Virus record (IMG/VR): IMGVR_UViG_3300029953_000068
Location: 1 to 42,112 of that record
Length of the DNA: 42,112 nt
DNA from: a virus
Reading direction: 5' to 3' (one strand)
Shown: one piece after another, positions 16,326-40,118 of the stretch
How positions within the stretch are numbered: position 1 is the stretch's first letter
Layout: each line of letters starts with the position of its first letter
Position numbers and translations under genes: made by a program
The notes under the pieces: generated by a model
What the model was told of the DNA's origin: nothing
Database searches by the model: none
What the model saw: only the letters and a program-made list of their open reading frames with translations

Positions 16326-16471
16326 TTCGTCCAGTAGTTCCAAAAGACGATAGCGCACGTCAAAATGGTTGCACATGCAACCGTCGTAGTTCAATACCGG
16401 GAAGTAAGCATCACCCGGACTGCGCTTTGTACCGTAAAGACAAAGGCATGGAGGAATATTATGAAACTTAA
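16307..16471 (+). CDS. 54-residue Cys/His-containing protein
   Basis: ATG 16307 follows AAAGGAAGG by 6 nt. The product is basic and has GCTCNRR and later SKHHPDCALY, a C-x-C ... HH-x-x-C arrangement that could bind zinc. Its stop overlaps the RNA ligase start by 11 nt, which suggests coupling to the RNA-repair genes. No family recognised. Confidence 0.6.
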   Translation: MRPPLLIRPVVPKDDSARQNGCTCNRRSSIPGSKHHPDCALYRKDKGMEEYYET

Positions 16472-17615
16472 TGAATATATCAATAAAGATCAACTACGAG
16501 AGTATATTAACAATGGGCTAGTAACCTGCCAACGCCATAACGAATTTCCTTTAGTCCAATTTACATATTCTCGTAAATGTGTATTAGATGATATATGGGA
16601 TGATATTACTATAAAGTGTCGAGGTCTAATAGTTAATAGTGAAACTGATGAAATAGTAGCACGTCCTTTTGAAAAGTTCTTTAATATAAACACTCTAAGC
16701 CGACCCGAAACAATGTTGGAGAATTTACCAAAGACTACACGATATACAACAGAAAAGCTAGATGGAAGTCTTGGTATATTATACGAGTATAATGACAAAT
16801 GGTATTGTGCTACTAAAGGGTCGTTCCATTCGGAGCAAGCAGAGTGGGCTAATAAATGGTTAGAAGGAAGAAAACTAACCTTTCCTAAAGACTTTACACC
16901 ACTCGTTGAGATCATTTGTCAAGACGTACAACACCATGTTGTTCATTACGATGAAGACCGTTTGGTACTTATTGGGTTAATATCCAATAATAGCGGAGAA
17001 GAGAAAAGAGCTTGGTACTTAGAAGATTATTGTCATTTTTGCGGAATTGACATAGAGACGGTACCCTATAATTGCTACTTTAATGGTGGTGGGCGTTACC
17101 TAGAACCCGAAGAATTATTAAAGTTAGATAGAGACAATAAAGAAGGCTATGTAGTAAGTTGGCCGCTAGTAGGTAAGCCGCCGTTAAAAGTTAAGATTAA
17201 GCACCCAACATTTCTTAAAAATCAAAAGTTTTTACACAATATGACTGCTAAAAAGATATTAGCAGCTTTGTCTACTAGTAGTATTCCAACAGACATAGCG
17301 AATTACCCGCAACATATACAAAATTATGTCAAAGAATGGGTAGATTATTATAGTGGGCTTTACGAAGAAATATTCAAAACGTCTTCTGAGATAGTAAAAG
17401 AGTCTATAACTAAATGCACTACTCGTAAAGAGACGGCGGAATTCTTTTTACAAAATGGCTATAGTTTCTATGCTCCAGTTTGTTTTTCAATGATCGACGC
17501 AACGCTAGACAAACCATCTTATTATAAAAAAATCATTTGGAAACTAGTTGACAAACTATCCAAGGAGCGAGATAATAAAAAAGAGGAGATTTGGGTAGAT
17601 GAGTATAGAGATTAA
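16461..17615 (+). CDS. T4 Rnl1-like RNA ligase
   Basis: A 384-residue ATP-dependent RNA ligase. The N-terminal region has KCRGLIVN, then TTEKLDGSLGI with the lysine that takes AMP (K99, motif I KLDGS), a motif III-like stretch (LVEIICQDV), motif IV EGYVVSW and motif V KVKIKHP, followed by a helical C-terminal domain as in T4 Rnl1. It would reseal cleaved tRNA or other RNA 3'-OH and 5'-phosphate ends. I use ATG 16461 with GGAGG 9 nt upstream. It overlaps the HAD phosphatase gene, which could process the ends. Confidence 0.87.
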   Translation: MKLNEYINKDQLREYINNGLVTCQRHNEFPLVQFTYSRKCVLDDIWDDITIKCRGLIVNSETDEIVARPFEKFFNINTLSRPETMLENLPKTTRYTTEKLDGSLGILYEYNDKWYCATKGSFHSEQAEWANKWLEGRKLTFPKDFTPLVEIICQDVQHHVVHYDEDRLVLIGLISNNSGEEKRAWYLEDYCHFCGIDIETVPYNCYFNGGGRYLEPEELLKLDRDNKEGYVVSWPLVGKPPLKVKIKHPTFLKNQKFLHNMTAKKILAALSTSSIPTDIANYPQHIQNYVKEWVDYYSGLYEEIFKTSSEIVKESITKCTTRKETAEFFLQNGYSFYAPVCFSMIDATLDKPSYYKKIIWKLVDKLSKERDNKKEEIWVDEYRD

Positions 17616-19701: not shown

Positions 19702-21378
19702 ATGCAAGAAAGACCATACCAACAAAAAGCACATGCTGAAATTGAAAAAGCTTTAGACCAAAATACATACCATCAACTAGTGTCTATGGCAACCGGCACA
19801 GGAAAAACTATTCTATTTAGTCAGTTGCCCAAACGCTTAAAAAATAAGCTACCCGGACAAATGATGGTATTCGCTCACCGCGATGAACTATTAGATCAAG
19901 CTATTTATAAAATTAGACAGGCCAACCCAGAGCTACGAGTTGATAAGGAAAAAGCCGAGCACAGAGCCGATCCGAGTGTAGCCGATGTAATCGTAGCCAG
20001 TATAGCGACTGTTGGTAAAAAGAATACTACAAGATTAGATAAATACAATTGGGGGAATTTTGATAAGTTTGTTACTGACGAGTGCCACCATAGTGTTTCA
20101 GATACCTATTTAAATATATACGATAAAGCTGGTATTTACCAACCGGGAAGTAAAAAACTTCATATAGGGTTTACAGCTACTCACGAACGAGGAGACGGCA
20201 AAGCACTAGCGAAACTATATGATAAAATTGTGTTTAACTACCCTCTACGCAAAGCGATTGAAGACGGTTGGCTAGTAGATGTTAGAGGAATCAGAGTAAA
20301 CACCAATACAGACCTTGACAAAGTAAAAATTACAGCAGGAGATTTTAATGAAAAGAGTTTGGCAGAGACTATTAACACTCCTGCTCGTAATCAAAGAGTT
20401 GTCAAAGCTTATTTGGAAGCTGGAGAAGAAAGACAAGCTATCGGATTTACTGTTGATATTAAACACGCACAAGATTTAGCGGAGATGTTTAGAGAGTATG
20501 ATATACCTGCGGAAGCCGTATGGGGCAATGATCCATTACGAGCGTATAAGATACAGCAGTTTCGAGACAACAATATTCGAGTTCTTTTTAACTGCGGCAT
20601 TTTAACCGAGGGGTTTGATATGTGGCAAGTTAGTTGTGTTATCCTTGCACGACCGACTAAGAGTAGCGTTTTGTTTGCTCAGATGATAGGACGTGGTACT
20701 AGACTAGAAGAAGGAACAGGCAATCTACTAGATTGGTCTGGACACCCTATTAAAAAAGATTGTATAGTAATTGATATTGTAGATACTTGTAAACGCCATA
20801 ATCTCATTACTTTGCCGACTTTGGTTGGGTTAGGCAGTATTAACTTAAATGGTAAGTCTCTTGTAAAAAGTGTACAAGAGATAGAAGCTAGTCAAACATT
20901 ATATCCTGATTTAGATTTTTCAAGTTTATCGGACATAAACGAACTAGAAGCGTTTATTGAACAGTTTAGTTTATTTGAAACTAAGATACCAGAAGAGGCA
21001 AATGCCAATAGTATTATGTCGTGGCATCGAGCACCTACTGGCGGTTACATACTAATGTTACCAAACAAAGAATTCGTAAAAATTAGCGAGAACATGCTTG
21101 ACAAATGGGATATATATGCTATTATAAAAGGACAAGCATACAAAGGGGAGAGGGCGACTATGGAAGACGCTTTCGGAACTGCTGATAAACTTATAAAGGA
21201 CGTAGCTCCAAATCTATTGACGCTCGTAAAGAAAGAGGCAACATGGAGGGACTTACCGCCAAAACCAGGTCAATTGTCTTTACTAAAAAAACTATTAAAA
21301 GGTAAGCCATTACCTAATAACTTAACTAGAGGTTCGGCTAGTAGAATGATTGGTAACTTTCTAGCCGGGAAAGGATAA
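19702..21378 (+). CDS. Superfamily 2 DNA/RNA helicase
   Basis: A 558-residue DExH helicase. Motif I is ATGTGKT (30-36), motif II DECHH (126-130), motif III FTATHERGD, and in the second RecA-like domain ILTEGFD, then QMIGRGTR (motif VI). It resembles the UvsW/RadD/type III restriction helicase group and phage T5 D10. It probably remodels recombination intermediates or replication forks. A C-terminal domain of about 200 residues is family-specific. The ribosome-binding site is weak (TAAGGA). Confidence 0.92.
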   Translation: MQERPYQQKAHAEIEKALDQNTYHQLVSMATGTGKTILFSQLPKRLKNKLPGQMMVFAHRDELLDQAIYKIRQANPELRVDKEKAEHRADPSVADVIVASIATVGKKNTTRLDKYNWGNFDKFVTDECHHSVSDTYLNIYDKAGIYQPGSKKLHIGFTATHERGDGKALAKLYDKIVFNYPLRKAIEDGWLVDVRGIRVNTNTDLDKVKITAGDFNEKSLAETINTPARNQRVVKAYLEAGEERQAIGFTVDIKHAQDLAEMFREYDIPAEAVWGNDPLRAYKIQQFRDNNIRVLFNCGILTEGFDMWQVSCVILARPTKSSVLFAQMIGRGTRLEEGTGNLLDWSGHPIKKDCIVIDIVDTCKRHNLITLPTLVGLGSINLNGKSLVKSVQEIEASQTLYPDLDFSSLSDINELEAFIEQFSLFETKIPEEANANSIMSWHRAPTGGYILMLPNKEFVKISENMLDKWDIYAIIKGQAYKGERATMEDAFGTADKLIKDVAPNLLTLVKKEATWRDLPPKPGQLSLLKKLLKGKPLPNNLTRGSASRMIGNFLAGKG

Positions 21379-22213: not shown

Positions 22214-24493
22214 ATGGAACAATACACACAAAATACAGCAGAGCCTCAAGATAAAAAAGCAAATCACCAAGCGAATGTCATACGCATTGAGGAAATCTTA
22301 CCGCATACTAACGCGGATAATCTTGAAATAATTCCTATCGGAGGTTTTCAAGTAGTTACTCGTAAGGGCCAGTTTAAAGTAGGCGATTTAGGGGTTTATA
22401 TCCAGCCGGATAGCATAGTACCTAAAAGTGAGACTTTTAAGTTTTTATGGGAAGGTCATGAAGATATTAATGGAGTAGTACCGACTAAGTATTTACGCAT
22501 TACTGTTAGGAAGTTTCGTAAGGAATGGTCTGAGGGGTTGCTATTACCAGTGTTTGATTTTCCACAATTACTTGATAGTGTACTAACAAATCATTTTGTA
22601 GAGTCAGACTATCCTGTTGGAACAGACGTATCAGACCTCCTCGGTATCACTCACTACGACCCTGATACTGGACGCGGTAGCACTGGCGATAACGAAAAGG
22701 TAATAAAAGGTGCTCCTAAACTAAAACGTAAGTATCCTACTACGTTGAAGGGTTGGTTTTTCTTTCTGCTTCATAAATTACGTCTACGAAGGGACGAGAA
22801 GAACTTTTCAGAAACCGTTAGTTTTCATGTACCAACATACGATGTAGAGGGGTTTAAGAATTATCCTAACGTGTTTAAGGACGGCGAACATGTCTTTGTG
22901 ACAGAGAAGATACATGGATGTGTAATAGGCTCAACCAAAGTTAGAATGGCAAATGGGACTAGAAAGTTTATAAGAGATATAGAAATAGGAGATGTTGTTA
23001 CAGGAGTAAATAAAGCAGGAAGTGTATCCTCTAGCAAGGTTGTTAAAACATACAACAACGGAAAGACAGAACAATGGTTGCGTGTGTCCGGTAAACGTGA
23101 AGGATTGGCAGGACGAGGTAACAGTTTCTTCGCAGTATACTGCACACCTGAGCATAAGTTTTGGGTAGTTGAAAAGCAAGAATTTGTAGAAGCAAAAAGC
23201 CTTAGTATAGGCGAACATGTACTAACACTTAGAACTGATTTAAGTCTAACGCCCGTTCAATACCAAGTAGTTTTAGGGAAACTGTTAGGAGATGGGCATC
23301 TTGCAACAGCAGTTAGTACCTCTGCACTTCACTTCGGGCATAGGGAAAAAGACAAAGATTACCTAAACTGGACTTTAAAAGGATTAGGGAACTTAGCAAA
23401 TCATAGAACCGATAATTATGTTAGTGGCTACGGAACTAATATGTTTAGAGGAAGTTCTATAGGAACGGGCTATCTTAAACAAGAATTTGAATGTTTTTAT
23501 GAAGGAGACAAGAAACAAGTTCCTTTTTGGGTAGAAAGTGAATTAACACCATTGTCTCTAGCTTTTTGGTATATGGATGATGGTAGCCTATGTCATAGTG
23601 ATGGGCAAGAAGACCGAGCATCTTTCGCTACTTGCGGATTCGACTATAAAAGTTGTACTATTTTAATTAAAGCGTTAGCAAGGTTAGGCGTAGAAGCTGA
23701 AGTGTCACAACACGATTATAATAGAATTGTGTTAAATACTGAAAACGCAGAACGATTGTTTTTATTAATTGCTCCTTATATACCAAAATGTATGCAAAGG
23801 AAACTGCCTGAACGCTACAGAGGAGGGGAAGGATGGTTACCAAACACTGAATCTGTTTATAAACCAGAGTTAGTATCAGTTTCTATTACAAGTATAGAAA
23901 GCGCTCCTACAATAACCTCTAAGAAGTATGATTTAGAAACAGAAACACATAACTACTTTGCTAATAACATTCTTGTACACAACTCGAACGCTAGGTATCT
24001 ATATCTTGACGGTGCGCAATACGCTGGAAGCCGTAACCTTTGGAAAGCGGCTGATAGTAATTGTGCATGGAGACGAGCATTAGTTGACAACCCTTGGATT
24101 GGAGAGTTTTGTAGGAACAATCCCGGTTATGTGCTTTGGGGTGAAATTACACCTACGCAAGGCGGTTTTGATTATATAACTAGTCCTAATCAAAAAGGAA
24201 AGATTCAATTTTTTGCTTTTGATGTTAGGACACCAAAGGGTGAATGGGAACCTAAAAATATAGCATGGCATCTTATAGACAACTACGGAGGACGTTTCGT
24301 TCCTGTTCTCTATGACGGACCTTACGACTACGATGTTATTAAGGGTATAGTAGACGGTAAGAGTGCAACGGGGGCAAACCACGTTCGTGAAGGAATTGTT
24401 ATCACTGCTTTAGATGATCGTACTGTTAGAGGACTTGGTAGGCCGCAGCTTAAAATAGTATCAAATTCTTTTCTTGAGAAAGATAGTAAGTAG
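22214..24493 (+). CDS. DRB0094-type RNA ligase interrupted by an intein
   Basis: A 759-residue precursor. Residues 1-235 and 591-759 form an RNA ligase of the DRB0094 group: an N-terminal OB-like domain (RIEEILPHTNADNLEIIPIG, GDLGVYIQPDSIVP), then the nucleotidyl motif EKIHG-SNARYLY. A 355-residue intein interrupts that motif between Gly235 and Ser591. The mature ligase would have 404 residues. Later motifs include VLWGEI and REGIVI, with QLKIVS near the end. It seals RNA, perhaps tRNA; it is a second ligase beside the Rnl1-like one. GAGGA lies upstream of ATG 22214. Confidence 0.88.
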   Translation: MEQYTQNTAEPQDKKANHQANVIRIEEILPHTNADNLEIIPIGGFQVVTRKGQFKVGDLGVYIQPDSIVPKSETFKFLWEGHEDINGVVPTKYLRITVRKFRKEWSEGLLLPVFDFPQLLDSVLTNHFVESDYPVGTDVSDLLGITHYDPDTGRGSTGDNEKVIKGAPKLKRKYPTTLKGWFFFLLHKLRLRRDEKNFSETVSFHVPTYDVEGFKNYPNVFKDGEHVFVTEKIHGCVIGSTKVRMANGTRKFIRDIEIGDVVTGVNKAGSVSSSKVVKTYNNGKTEQWLRVSGKREGLAGRGNSFFAVYCTPEHKFWVVEKQEFVEAKSLSIGEHVLTLRTDLSLTPVQYQVVLGKLLGDGHLATAVSTSALHFGHREKDKDYLNWTLKGLGNLANHRTDNYVSGYGTNMFRGSSIGTGYLKQEFECFYEGDKKQVPFWVESELTPLSLAFWYMDDGSLCHSDGQEDRASFATCGFDYKSCTILIKALARLGVEAEVSQHDYNRIVLNTENAERLFLLIAPYIPKCMQRKLPERYRGGEGWLPNTESVYKPELVSVSITSIESAPTITSKKYDLETETHNYFANNILVHNSNARYLYLDGAQYAGSRNLWKAADSNCAWRRALVDNPWIGEFCRNNPGYVLWGEITPTQGGFDYITSPNQKGKIQFFAFDVRTPKGEWEPKNIAWHLIDNYGGRFVPVLYDGPYDYDVIKGIVDGKSATGANHVREGIVITALDDRTVRGLGRPQLKIVSNSFLEKDSK
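22919..23983 (+). mobile_element. Intein with LAGLIDADG homing endonuclease
   Basis: Precursor residues 236-590. Block A begins CVIGSTKVRM with catalytic Cys1; block B is CTPEHKF with the T-x-x-H signature; LGKLLGDGH and LAFWYMDDGSL are the two LAGLIDADG helices; block F is KYDLETETHNYFANN and block G ILVHN ends in Asn355, followed by Ser+1. All residues needed for splicing are present. It inserts inside the ligase active-site KxxG(S) motif, the most conserved spot of the host gene, as inteins usually do. Confidence 0.95.
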
Positions 24494-24506: not shown

Positions 24507-26495
24507 ATGGGAACGATAAATAACAGTATGGAGGGCAGCAATGCTCTCCAACTTATTGTAAGTAAGGGATGGAATTGGAAAAACTCTAATGATCCGAATA
24601 TTGAACTTGAAGTGTGCCCGTTTTGTAAGAAGTCTGGGTACGGACACTTTTATCAAGAGATTCATGGGACCACTAGCGAACGACGAAACCGAGACGGTTT
24701 ATTTCTTTGCCAAAAGTGCGGAAAAAGTGGAAATCTTCATACCCTTAAACAACATTTAGGATTATCTACAGCAGAAGTAGGCTCTACGAAAGACTGGGCT
24801 AGTTCGGAAACTAAAATTGATGCATTGCCAAATGTTGAGGCTTGTCACGAACTGTTATTAGCTGACGCTGATGCTATGGATTACCTCATGAACATAAGAG
24901 GGTTTAGTAGAAAGGTAATCGAGCAGCAAAAACTAGGACTAAAAGAGAAACACTTTTTTAAGGGGCTAGGAGAAATAAGAGCACTAGTCTTTCCGTATCT
25001 TATCAATGGTAACACAGTATTTGCTCACTTTCGTTCTTTACCAGACCCTAACGATCTAACTAAAGTAGAGAAAGCATTTAATAGTCCTCGTGGATATGAC
25101 GCTGTTCTATATAATGGGCACATTCTAAAAGAAGGACTCAAAGAGGTAGTATTCGTTGAAGGAGAAATGGATACCATTTGCGCTCTCGATAATGGTATAC
25201 TCAATGTGTGCGGCGTACCCGGAGCCAACATCCGTAAAGCTGAATGGATAGACAAAATTGATAGTATTGGATTAGAAAAGATTTATATATGCTACGATTC
25301 TGACAAAGTAGGTCAAAAAGCAGCACAAACACTAGCAGTTAAAATCGGCATTGAACGGTGTTATAAAATACAACTACCAGCTTTTACTACACTAGATGGT
25401 AAAATTGGTAAGGATTTAAACGAGTGGTTTAAAAACGGAGGCACCCTAGAGGCGTTCGAGCAGCTTAAACAAGACGCTGACCTGTTCGATGTAGACGGTG
25501 TTAGCAGCAGCGCAGATGCCCTAGAAGAGTTTGAGGATGAACTAGACGGTAAAGGATCAGGACAAAAGTATGCTACACCTTGGCCTAGTTTGAGTAAAAT
25601 TGTCAGATTCGACGAAGGCGACATTATCGACATTATAGCTCCTGAGAAAATAGGCAAGACAACAATGGGCCTAAATATCATGGAATTTATGGTTGACACC
25701 TATGGGGAAGATGGTGTTATAATATGCTTAGAAATGACACGAGCAAGAATGGCCCGTAAATGGCTGTGCCACAAGACAGGAATACCCGATGTACTCGCTA
25801 CTACGATTGAAGAGGAAAAAGCACTTACTAGCGCCTTCAAACAGGCTATACCTAGTGTTAAGCAAATGGCGGCAAACAGAGAAGGTAATTTGTACTTCTG
25901 TTATCCCAAGTACAAATCAGCCGAAGATATTTACAACTTAATTGTAGCTTGTATTAGACGTTATGGTGTCAAATGGGTTATGATTGATAACCTTCAACTT
26001 CTATGTGATGCTACTATCGGAACACGCAGTAGGACACAATATTTATCAGAAATCAGTAAAAGTTTGGCAAAAATCGGCAAAGACTATAACATACAGATGT
26101 TAAGAATTCTACAACCTCACCGGATAGCGGCTGGTAAAGTGGCTACCTCAGACAACGTAGATGGTTCTTCTCAAATTGCTAAAGATTGTGATTGCATGTT
26201 AGTAGCCAATCGTGCTAGACTAAATGAGTTAGAAAAAGATACTCTGCAAGAGGGAGCCTTTGTACAAACAGAAGGAACGTTTGGTAACGACTTTTATGTA
26301 GGTGTCGGATTAAGTCGGTATTCAGCAGGAGGATCAACAACGCTATACTACGAAGGAGCAACTAGTTCTATTTATGAACAAGCCGAAGGTAAGGTAGCGG
26401 CTATGAAAGCTAAAAGTATGCAAGCCGGAAAAGGTGATCTACAAAACACATTGGAAACATTGAGCAAATATTCACAACAGGAGATAAACCCATGA
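24507..26495 (+). CDS. T7 gp4-like primase-helicase
   Basis: A 662-residue bifunctional replication protein. CPFC (37-40) and CQKC (68-71) form the primase zinc-binding domain; VVFVEGEMD (Glu218, Glu220) and CYDSD (Asp264, Asp266) are TOPRIM motifs; APEKIGKTT (378-386) is a DnaB-type Walker A; WVMIDNLQLL is Walker B; a region with RTRTQ-like finger (SRTQYLSEISKSLAKIGKDY) follows. It unwinds DNA at the fork and makes RNA primers. ATG 24507 has GGGAG upstream; ATG 24528 is a shorter alternative, as in the two forms of T7 gp4. Confidence 0.92.
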   Translation: MGTINNSMEGSNALQLIVSKGWNWKNSNDPNIELEVCPFCKKSGYGHFYQEIHGTTSERRNRDGLFLCQKCGKSGNLHTLKQHLGLSTAEVGSTKDWASSETKIDALPNVEACHELLLADADAMDYLMNIRGFSRKVIEQQKLGLKEKHFFKGLGEIRALVFPYLINGNTVFAHFRSLPDPNDLTKVEKAFNSPRGYDAVLYNGHILKEGLKEVVFVEGEMDTICALDNGILNVCGVPGANIRKAEWIDKIDSIGLEKIYICYDSDKVGQKAAQTLAVKIGIERCYKIQLPAFTTLDGKIGKDLNEWFKNGGTLEAFEQLKQDADLFDVDGVSSSADALEEFEDELDGKGSGQKYATPWPSLSKIVRFDEGDIIDIIAPEKIGKTTMGLNIMEFMVDTYGEDGVIICLEMTRARMARKWLCHKTGIPDVLATTIEEEKALTSAFKQAIPSVKQMAANREGNLYFCYPKYKSAEDIYNLIVACIRRYGVKWVMIDNLQLLCDATIGTRSRTQYLSEISKSLAKIGKDYNIQMLRILQPHRIAAGKVATSDNVDGSSQIAKDCDCMLVANRARLNELEKDTLQEGAFVQTEGTFGNDFYVGVGLSRYSAGGSTTLYYEGATSSIYEQAEGKVAAMKAKSMQAGKGDLQNTLETLSKYSQQEINP

Positions 26496-37010: not shown

Positions 37011-40000
37011 TCACTTACCCCCTAACGCGCTTGCAGCTCCTGCATAGATGCTACTTCGGTAATCTTTCCTACTAGGTTCTCCAGCGTAGACTTTAGCAGC
37101 TTTTCCTATAGCTTTGCCAGTATCACTATTAACTACTTTAGAAGCAGCTTCACCAGCCTTACCGATGCCGCCAATTATCTTCCAAGTGGTAGGGTGATTA
37201 GCAGCATACTCCACAAAGTCCTTAACACCTTTAAGACCTGCTGTTAAACCAATGGCTCCTACAATAGTTTCAAAACCACGGCTTATAGCAGGAGCTACAA
37301 AAGCAGCACTGCCCGGCAAAGCAGTATTAGCTATAGAACCAGCTAAGGCACCGCCACCGACACCTAATGTAGCACCGACTAAACCTGTACCAATATAGAT
37401 ACCAGCTTTTGCTAATTTCTTAACACTAGCAGTATCCTTAATATCATTTACTATACTTTGGACTTTTTGTAAACTAGCAGGATCGCGTGTGCTAAACACT
37501 TCATTAAACACATCTGGTTTGACTTTTTCGTACCAATCTAAGTATTTAGCAGGATCAAATCTACCACCGGGACTACTATTTTGAATTACCTTTTGGTGGA
37601 TACCATCTGCTATAGTTTGCCAATCGTCACCAGCAACACTTTTAGCTTTTCGGATAGCATCAAGAGGAATATCACCTTGTAGAAAGTTAGGATTAGTAGC
37701 TCCGTCTTCTATACCTTGCATGAATCTAGGAGTAATACTAGCTGTGTCTTCTTTTTGTGTGGTTCTAGCTTGTTCTAATTTATCATTAATACGGGCCATA
37801 GCATCATCATAATCAGTTTGAGCATGTGCAACGTCCTGTGCTTGTATCAAAGGGTTAGTGATTTTTGCTATCTCTCTTTGTTTAGTAGTATCGGCTAATG
37901 TAGTAGCATGTTCTGTATCCGCACCTTGGTTAGCTGCACTTTGACGTGCTTCCGCATCTTCTAATGTATTAGTTCGTGCTTGTGTGTTTATAGCTGTTGA
38001 AGATGTTCTTTCGGCCTTTGCATCATCTAATGCTTTCTGATAGGCATCTTCAACGTGAGCCAACCCTTGAGAGTGTGCATCAAATATGCCGTCTATTTTA
38101 GCTCTTAGTTCGGGACCAAATAGCCTATCTTTTACAGCATCCTTAATGGCGTTCCAACTAGTTAAAGCAGCTTTTGGATTATCTTGTGCTAAATCCGCAA
38201 GTTGACGTATTTTAGTAGATACTATTGGGGTTATACCGTCTATTCCAGCAGTTTTTCCCAAACGACTAATAAGTTCAATCCTAGCCAATGCGTTAGGAGA
38301 ATTTATTACATACTTAGTAGCATCATCTAATGCTTTGTCCTTGTTTTTAGGATTTATGTTTAATTTTTCGCCTGTAGTGGTTTCTAAATCTCTACTATTA
38401 TCGAAATAGGCTTTTCTTGCATCTGCAACTTGTTGTATTACTTCGGGGTTATTAGTGTGCTGCGCCATTGCAGTTACATCATCATCTATACCTTTGATTA
38501 AATCTCGCAGAGTAGTATAATTTGGATCATGCCATCCATGCTTCTCACCCATAGCTTGCGCCGTGGCTCTTACGTCTTTTCTTTCGTTTAATAAATCCTG
38601 AATAGTTGCGTCTGGGGTTTTGTTAACTATAGCAGCAGGACCAATGGCACCCTTCTCTGCGTTTTCTAAAGGACCGCCATAAGCAGCCGTCTCTAAAAGC
38701 TCCTTAGTCCTTTGCTCTAGTGTTTCGTTACGAGCAGCTTTAGCCGCTGCTTGTATAGGAGTATCGGCGGGAGAAGGTTTGCCTAATGCTTCAATAGCAG
38801 CATTAGAAGTATTACTATTATCTCTAGGGATTGTTTGTCCTTCTAGTTTACTAGTAACGTCTTCAATCATTGTGTCATAAGCTTTGTGATTATTTTCTTT
38901 AGCAGTGTTTATTAAAGTGCTTAAATTACCAGCTATATCTTCTGGACCTTTTACACCTTCGGGCAAATCGGGAGCATTTTTTTGTAAATTAGTTGCTAAG
39001 TCTTGATGCACAGCTTGCGTAGCATCGGTTTTAGCTTTCTCAGCAGCATCGTTACGAGCCTTTAACAACTTTTCAGCTTGTGTTTCGCTTCTAGTACGCT
39101 GTTGATCCGCTATTAGTTTACGCTGTTCTGCTTCCTCTTGTGCAGCTTGCTTAGCTAGTTTAGCCTTATCTGCCGAGCTTCCTTCGTGAGCTTTTAGTTG
39201 TTCCTCTAGTTCACGTTGTCTTTGTGCTGCTTCTGTTGCGGCTTGCTCTTTAGCTTTTTGTAAATCTGTTGCGGCTTGTTTTGTTTGTGCTTCAGCCGCG
39301 CCGTTGTGCCAGTCAAAGATACTATCAATCTTATCTTTGATACCTTTAACAGCATTTGACACGGTATCTGCTACGTTTTGTTTACTAACATCTGATAAAG
39401 CCTTGTAAGTATCGGCGGCTTTTGTTAATATGCCACTCTTATTTATTAATAAACCTACTTCTTCACCTATTGGTCCAAGAACAGCACTTGCTCTTGCCAT
39501 TGCACCGGCGTCTTTAGCAGCTTGTCCAGTGTCTCCACCAGAGCGAATAAGAGTTTGTACGCCTTGTATGCCTCCAGCCTTTAATGCTTCGACACCTGTT
39601 TTTAGAGCATATAGCGTTATAGGAGAGTTCTCAAGAGTTTTCATAATATCTGAAATCTTTTTAAGTTTGTCAGATTGTGATAAACCTTTTAGTGCCTCAT
39701 CTCCTAATAGAAATTCTACTAGAGTCTCGCCACCATACCCAAACTTCTCGCCTATAGAGGTGTTCTCATTATCTCCTGCATACTCATGTAAAGTATCTCT
39801 AACGCCTTGCGGAGCATGAACTATATCAGAAGCACCAGCAGCCGTACTAAGAAGCCCTGCTCCGAATCCAGCAAAAGGTGCGGCTACAGCCTTACCTAAC
39901 ATGGTCGGAAGATTATCGTTGTCACTACCTATTAAAGGGCTATCTACTTTCTTAGGACCGCCAATAGGCGTAGCACCGTCTAAAGGATCACTACTTTGCT

Positions 40001-40118
40001 GCGTAGTCTGTGAGGACTGCGTATGCATTGTAACAGGTGTAGCACCTTCTAATGGATCACTTTGAGTGTTTTGTGGGGAAACGGAACTAACCGCTCCCCC
40101 TACGTTTTGATCTAACAT
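37011..40118 (-). CDS. Very large virion protein, probable internal virion/ejection protein
   Basis: A 1035-residue protein. The N-terminus has a repeated SDPL-E/D-GATP motif in a Gln/Ser-rich segment; a Gly/Ala-rich hydrophobic patch follows (about 70-95). Long Ala/Gln/Lys/Glu coiled coils fill about 275-385 and 720-830. A second Gly/Ala-rich hydrophobic stretch (AGIYIGTGLVGATLG and on) sits at about 900-950. This suits an internal virion protein that forms a channel during DNA ejection, beside the transglycosylase protein. No enzyme motif found. Confidence 0.7.
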   Translation of the reverse strand: MLDQNVGGAVSSVSPQNTQSDPLEGATPVTMHTQSSQTTQQSSDPLDGATPIGGPKKVDSPLIGSDNDNLPTMLGKAVAAPFAGFGAGLLSTAAGASDIVHAPQGVRDTLHEYAGDNENTSIGEKFGYGGETLVEFLLGDEALKGLSQSDKLKKISDIMKTLENSPITLYALKTGVEALKAGGIQGVQTLIRSGGDTGQAAKDAGAMARASAVLGPIGEEVGLLINKSGILTKAADTYKALSDVSKQNVADTVSNAVKGIKDKIDSIFDWHNGAAEAQTKQAATDLQKAKEQAATEAAQRQRELEEQLKAHEGSSADKAKLAKQAAQEEAEQRKLIADQQRTRSETQAEKLLKARNDAAEKAKTDATQAVHQDLATNLQKNAPDLPEGVKGPEDIAGNLSTLINTAKENNHKAYDTMIEDVTSKLEGQTIPRDNSNTSNAAIEALGKPSPADTPIQAAAKAARNETLEQRTKELLETAAYGGPLENAEKGAIGPAAIVNKTPDATIQDLLNERKDVRATAQAMGEKHGWHDPNYTTLRDLIKGIDDDVTAMAQHTNNPEVIQQVADARKAYFDNSRDLETTTGEKLNINPKNKDKALDDATKYVINSPNALARIELISRLGKTAGIDGITPIVSTKIRQLADLAQDNPKAALTSWNAIKDAVKDRLFGPELRAKIDGIFDAHSQGLAHVEDAYQKALDDAKAERTSSTAINTQARTNTLEDAEARQSAANQGADTEHATTLADTTKQREIAKITNPLIQAQDVAHAQTDYDDAMARINDKLEQARTTQKEDTASITPRFMQGIEDGATNPNFLQGDIPLDAIRKAKSVAGDDWQTIADGIHQKVIQNSSPGGRFDPAKYLDWYEKVKPDVFNEVFSTRDPASLQKVQSIVNDIKDTASVKKLAKAGIYIGTGLVGATLGVGGGALAGSIANTALPGSAAFVAPAISRGFETIVGAIGLTAGLKGVKDFVEYAANHPTTWKIIGGIGKAGEAASKVVNSDTGKAIGKAAKVYAGEPSRKDYRSSIYAGAASALGGK

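Follow-up and report, generated by a model that had tools for sequence, protein, structure and literature searches.

Why does an intein lie within the catalytic motif of an RNA ligase, and does its excision control the enzyme? The question is raised by a gene on the plus strand (22214-24493) of the window, that is, the whole stretch of viral DNA analysed here (42,112 nucleotides). The gene, open over 2280 nt, encodes a 759-residue RNA ligase precursor that comprises an N-extein of 235 residues, an intein of 355 residues and a C-extein of 169 residues, with a spliced ligase of 404 residues.

Anatomy of the insertion and its empty sites

The intein (22919-23983, plus strand; C1 to N355, precursor residues 236-590) carries the residues of a class 1 intein: Cys1, T76-P-E-H79 in splicing block B (23144-23155, plus strand), with Cys75 directly before it, the terminal His354-Asn355 and Ser+1. 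The terminal pair closes blocks F and G, D-L-E-T-E-T-H-N-Y-F-A-N-N-I-L-V-H-N (23930-23983, plus strand; TIGR01443 and alignment). Pfam matches the open reading frame to an intein splicing domain (1.8e-9) and to a LAGLIDADG_2 endonuclease domain (E=1.5e-21; 23264-23749, plus strand, precursor residues 351-512). In the latter, both LAGLIDADG motifs, LLGDG (D125) and YMDDG (D220/D221), are intact, and their predicted catalytic aspartates are invariant across 18 aligned inteins. The AF2 model of the intein reaches a mean pLDDT of 91 and contains the Hint fold of class 1 inteins; its closest matches in Foldseek are I-SceI, PI-SceI and, through their splicing domains, the Mtu RecA and Ssp DnaB inteins. 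As expected of a class 1 intein, the insertion is in frame, has precise junctions and is missing from four orthologues (L025, L026, L028 and L031). Given the confident model, the known intein and nuclease folds and the recurrence of the sequence in three near-identical contigs (0-2 nt differences), the window intein does not represent a chance pattern. A closely related intein is truncated by the end of another contig (L008), which retains its C-terminal part and the SNAR that follows. Chance or a misread junction is ruled out by the identity of the junction among independent lineages.

The flanking exteins form an RNA ligase. An N-terminal OB-fold domain (PF21189, 2e-16; 22274-22552, plus strand, precursor residues 21-113), assigned by Pfam and by Foldseek similarity to the Naegleria gruberi RNA ligase, precedes the 5' half of motif I, E231-K232-I-H-G235 (22904-22918, plus strand), in which K232 is the predicted AMP-accepting lysine. 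The C-extein (23984-24490, plus strand; Pfam and alignment) opens with the Ser+1-Asn of motif I and continues with GSRN, GEITP, FFAFD, REGIVI and QLKIVS, which correspond to the remaining nucleotidyltransferase motifs of the ligase superfamily. The protein matches RNA_ligase (PF09414, 5e-10; Pfam) and the RNA ligases of PHROG 968 (2e-39). The match to TIGR02306 (RNA ligase, DRB0094 type; 1e-29) comes in pieces and, at 103.6 bits, stays below the NCBIfam cut-off of 151.15, probably due to the intein splitting it; three ligases with an intein at the same site (L006, L037 and L134) do exceed this cut-off. Pfam, Foldseek and alignment all point to the Rnl5-type architecture of an OB domain and a nucleotidyltransferase domain with motifs I, III, IV and V. 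Because of the sub-threshold score, we use the term Rnl5-type and do not claim confirmed membership in the TIGR02306 equivalog family. The AF2 model of the precursor is poor (pTM 0.41) and gives no guide to ATP binding by the unspliced enzyme; the exteins nevertheless align in Foldseek along the whole N. gruberi ligase.

The junction falls between Gly235 and Ser+1 (K232-I-H-G/S-N, the slash marking the insertion site here and below), three residues past the predicted nucleophile, for which K170 of the N. gruberi ligase is the apparent counterpart. Both K232 and G235 are invariant in 18 ligases. Thus, the original prediction of a 355-residue intein with all splicing residues and a LAGLIDADG nuclease, placed inside the KxxG(S) motif, was correct to the base, with the qualification that the catalytic lysine itself remains in the N-extein. 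Judging from these residues, the intein is intact and probably active. It is also plausible, and likely on general grounds, that the unspliced precursor is ligase-dead, because the residues that follow K-x-H-G belong to the conserved motif. The stricter claim of the original prediction, that no adenylation can occur before splicing, goes beyond this, the exteins aligning with a whole ligase fold even in the poor precursor model.

Intein-free alleles, which had been proposed as something to seek in sister phages, were indeed found. The viral contigs L025, L026 and L028 and the Tunturiibacter phage Tunturi_3 (L031) encode orthologues with an uninterrupted EKIHGSNAR, 46-54% identical to the spliced window ligase. 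Tunturi_3 shares with the window the gene order helicase-ligase-primase, the neighbours in the window being a DNA helicase upstream (19702-21378, plus strand) and a DNA primase/helicase downstream (24507-26495, plus strand). The junction DNA is strongly conserved among the empty alleles, GAGAAGATNCAYGGN/TCGAACGC or near variants, and the empty site of L027 differs at 3 of 23 nt, all of them third positions. Elsewhere in the window, the minus strand (37011-40118) encodes a 1035-residue open reading frame that has no PHROG match at 0.001 and adjoins a transglycosylase/tail-lysin-like open reading frame.

Related inteins in other ligases

A survey queried with the window intein alone and with a four-member intein alignment revealed related inteins at the same G/S, G/C or G/T junction of motif I in about 15 other ligase lineages of phages, a megaplasmid and bacterial chromosomes, the interrupted motif being K-x-[HDA]-G/[SCT]. 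Ligase families were assigned from profile matches or, in the case of L051, by inspecting the sequence. The carriers include Rnl5-type ligases (L006, L037, L051 and L134, the last on a Miltoncostaea oceani megaplasmid), Rnl2-type ligases (L005 and L041, by a match to the T4_Rnl2_C domain or TIGR02307, with weaker matches in L044 and L113) and unnamed ligases in Catenuloplanes (L111) and Plantactinospora (L112). Further cases are found in cluster J mycobacteriophages (L032) and in L038, L048 and L060/L061. In L043 and in L040, which has an HNH-like head, the intein lies one residue later, KMDGE/C. Related inteins also occupy a second ligase site, the motif III-like GEWxG/SxIQKS, in L033 (phage KLEP7), L045/L046 and L007; the junction is G/S at both sites.

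Some members of this group appear degraded. L061 (2423-4041), identical in L060, holds a nuclease-free mini-intein at the same ligase site, with a -1 frame break near AAGAAAAAG, just past intein block A; this ligase is either decaying or dependent on a programmed frameshift. Relics of the window-intein clade are present in Actinoplanes couchii (L109, 3001-4062) and Nocardiopsis sinuspersici (L110, 3001-4077), where Cys1 is replaced by Gly and the terminal Asn by Asp, and the surrounding open frame lacks a ligase extein.

In a tree of 33 inteins, the window intein belongs to a clade of 14 (support 100/99) that mixes inteins of Rnl5, Rnl2, actinobacterial and HNH-headed ligases and includes the two relics. 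Forcing together the inteins of the four Rnl5 ligases of this clade, a group picked after the tree was seen, is rejected (p-AU 0.008). A single origin for all motif I inteins is not rejected (p 0.11), and two motif I pairs, L044/L113 and L048/L051, fall outside the main clade with no secure join to it. Similarity is higher between the inteins than between their host ligases: the window intein is 48% and 47% identical over its full length to those of L111 and L112, respectively, and the ligases can be aligned over only 50-53 residues. The mixed clade, together with this similarity of inteins between ligases that barely align, shows that the intein has moved between ligase families, presumably via similar motif I codons. 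Ancient vertical passage with the Rnl5 ligases is ruled out by the AU test (p 0.008, for the post hoc group) and by the empty orthologues.

The clearest homing footprint belongs not to the window intein itself but to a 35%-identical relative in cluster J mycobacteriophages. Among 45 cluster J ligase records, 6 contain the intein and 39 lack it, with exteins 90-99% identical. When the intein-plus phage Beem is compared with the intein-minus phage Wanda, no differences are found in the 591 nt 5' of the junction. The first ~280 nt on the 3' side are 59-70% identical (100-nt windows), after which the sequences become near-identical again. In a comparison of L032 and L137-L146, this 3' tract is 99-100% identical in all four intein-plus phages examined and absent from all seven intein-minus phages, whose sequence is only 58-72% identical to that of the carriers. 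Over 1071 nt, Beem, Bobby and Phoebus share one identical intein sequence, from which that of KashFlow departs at 4 positions, despite a dS of ~0.2 between the N-exteins of Beem and Bobby. Such a footprint is expected from homing with one-sided co-conversion or from import of a cassette of the intein and its flank. In phage Hannaconda, the intein-bearing RNA ligase (MN586029.1, gene 150) is labelled an HNH endonuclease, apparently in error, as the similarity that we found points to inteins of the LAGLIDADG type.

Homing versus regulated splicing

The explanation that we favour, with high confidence, is a canonical mobile intein that self-splices from the Rnl5-type ligase precursor and homes to the conserved motif I codons, without regulation of splicing. 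Alongside the observed anatomy, empty sites, shared site in other ligases and homing footprints in relatives, we infer from the sequence the splicing, DNA cleavage, ligase activity and lack of regulation in the window itself. Under this model, a single 759-residue precursor would be translated from the gene, and Cys1 and Ser+1, aided by the block B Thr and His and the terminal His-Asn, would excise the intein. Excision would rejoin K-I-H-G to S-N and yield an ordinary 404-residue Rnl5-type RNA ligase. The LAGLIDADG nuclease, once released, would cut the codon block GAGAAGATNCAYGGN/TCGAAC in intein-free ligase genes, and repair of the cut would copy the intein into the empty allele. The ligase would probably be inactive before splicing, and splicing would probably be constitutive. 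LAGLIDADG enzymes require a long conserved target. Motif I would provide one, since few parts of the gene have DNA as constrained as its codons, and it also offers Ser, Thr or Cys at +1. Accommodation of the insertion at a catalytic motif would then be explained by homing: the target is conserved, the +1 nucleophile is in place, and imprecise loss destroys the ligase.

The main alternative is that splicing serves as a regulated gate, in which oxidation of Cys1 (perhaps through a Cys1-Cys75 disulfide), temperature or a ligand would hold the ligase unspliced until RNA repair is needed. Such an arrangement has precedents among redox-controlled inteins with disulfides of the catalytic cysteine; in the mycobacterial DnaB intein Msm DnaBi1, this cysteine can enter such a disulfide and thereby serve a sensor role (PMC6195587). 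The junction lies only three residues from the catalytic lysine, and Cys75, within the splicing block and adjoining the block B Thr, is shared by 13 of the 16 motif I inteins counted (the window intein among them, with one relic and one mini-intein left out) compared to 9 of 32 other inteins, although these rows are not independent. Cys75 is the one hint in the sequence that splicing may be redox-sensitive, and a candidate only. However, it is lacking in L006, L032 and L134, and a search of extein positions -1 to -3 for a redox-partner cysteine found none. Moreover, intein-free orthologues are common, nearly all of these inteins retain an intact nuclease, and the element passes between ligases and hosts that are unrelated, contrary to what would be expected of a co-evolved switch. 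Accordingly, gating of the ligase by redox state or temperature, which the original prediction had put forward, is not borne out, and we consider a regulated gate improbable.

A broader version of this alternative, which we regard as very improbable, holds that the inteins in motif I of ligases form a single-motif specialist clade that has passed between phage and bacterial ligase families, and that redox pairing of Cys1 with Cys75 or a bound ligand would make splicing a conditional switch for RNA repair. Least probable of all, and highly unlikely, is a defective intein in a dying ligase gene: a second ligase with an uninterrupted motif I (EKLDGS) could cover the function, and the relics L109 and L110 and the frame-broken mini-intein of L060/L061 fall in the same clade, but the window intein, its nuclease and the ligase keep all their catalytic residues, the 2280-nt frame is uninterrupted, and three other contigs hold the same gene. 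This second ligase (16365-17615) is T4 Rnl1-like (phrog_562); together with seven tRNA genes, it suggests a strategy of tRNA repair or supply.

Comparison with known systems

In the literature searched, which covered few subscription journals, a description of inteins in motif I of RNA ligases did not turn up. Insertion next to catalytic residues is well documented for inteins. The window intein adds a member, and the motif I pattern at the family level deserves recording: KxHG/S or KxDG/S has been repeatedly colonised by related inteins across families of ATP-dependent RNA ligases. With many such cases at hand, the preference of inteins for active sites becomes a comparative question. With plus and minus isolates whose exteins are up to ~99% identical, the cluster J phages of Mycobacterium smegmatis lend themselves to tests of homing and to measuring whether an intein in an RNA-repair gene carries a cost or a benefit.

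The known systems resemble the window locus in different respects. The cluster J RNA ligase inteins (Beem gp158, Bobby gp147, Phoebus gp158 and others) share the site (KLHG/S), the class 1 residues and the LAGLIDADG nuclease but inhabit a different, divergent ligase; public annotation names the gene an RNA ligase or HNH endonuclease, and no intein. The actinobacterial inteins occupy the same site (L111, 48% identical to the window intein; L112, 47%; the Miltoncostaea plasmid L134, 38%) but reside on a bacterial chromosome or megaplasmid, and the ligase of L111 and L112 is a different one (KVDG/S). Pseudaeromonas phage KLEP7, the public record of which already reads 'intein-containing RNA ligase', carries its related intein in the motif III-like GEWAG/SNIQKS and has motif I intact, unlike the window. 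PI-SceI shares its fold with the window intein plus nuclease, and I-SceI with the nuclease domain, whereas their host genes and targets differ. Finally, the active-site inteins of mycobacteriophages and the RadA P-loop intein likewise lie beside invariant catalytic residues of nucleic-acid enzymes (PMC5050341, PMC5790916), but their host proteins are not RNA ligases, and control of splicing was demonstrated experimentally for RadA, whereas the window intein is read from its sequence.
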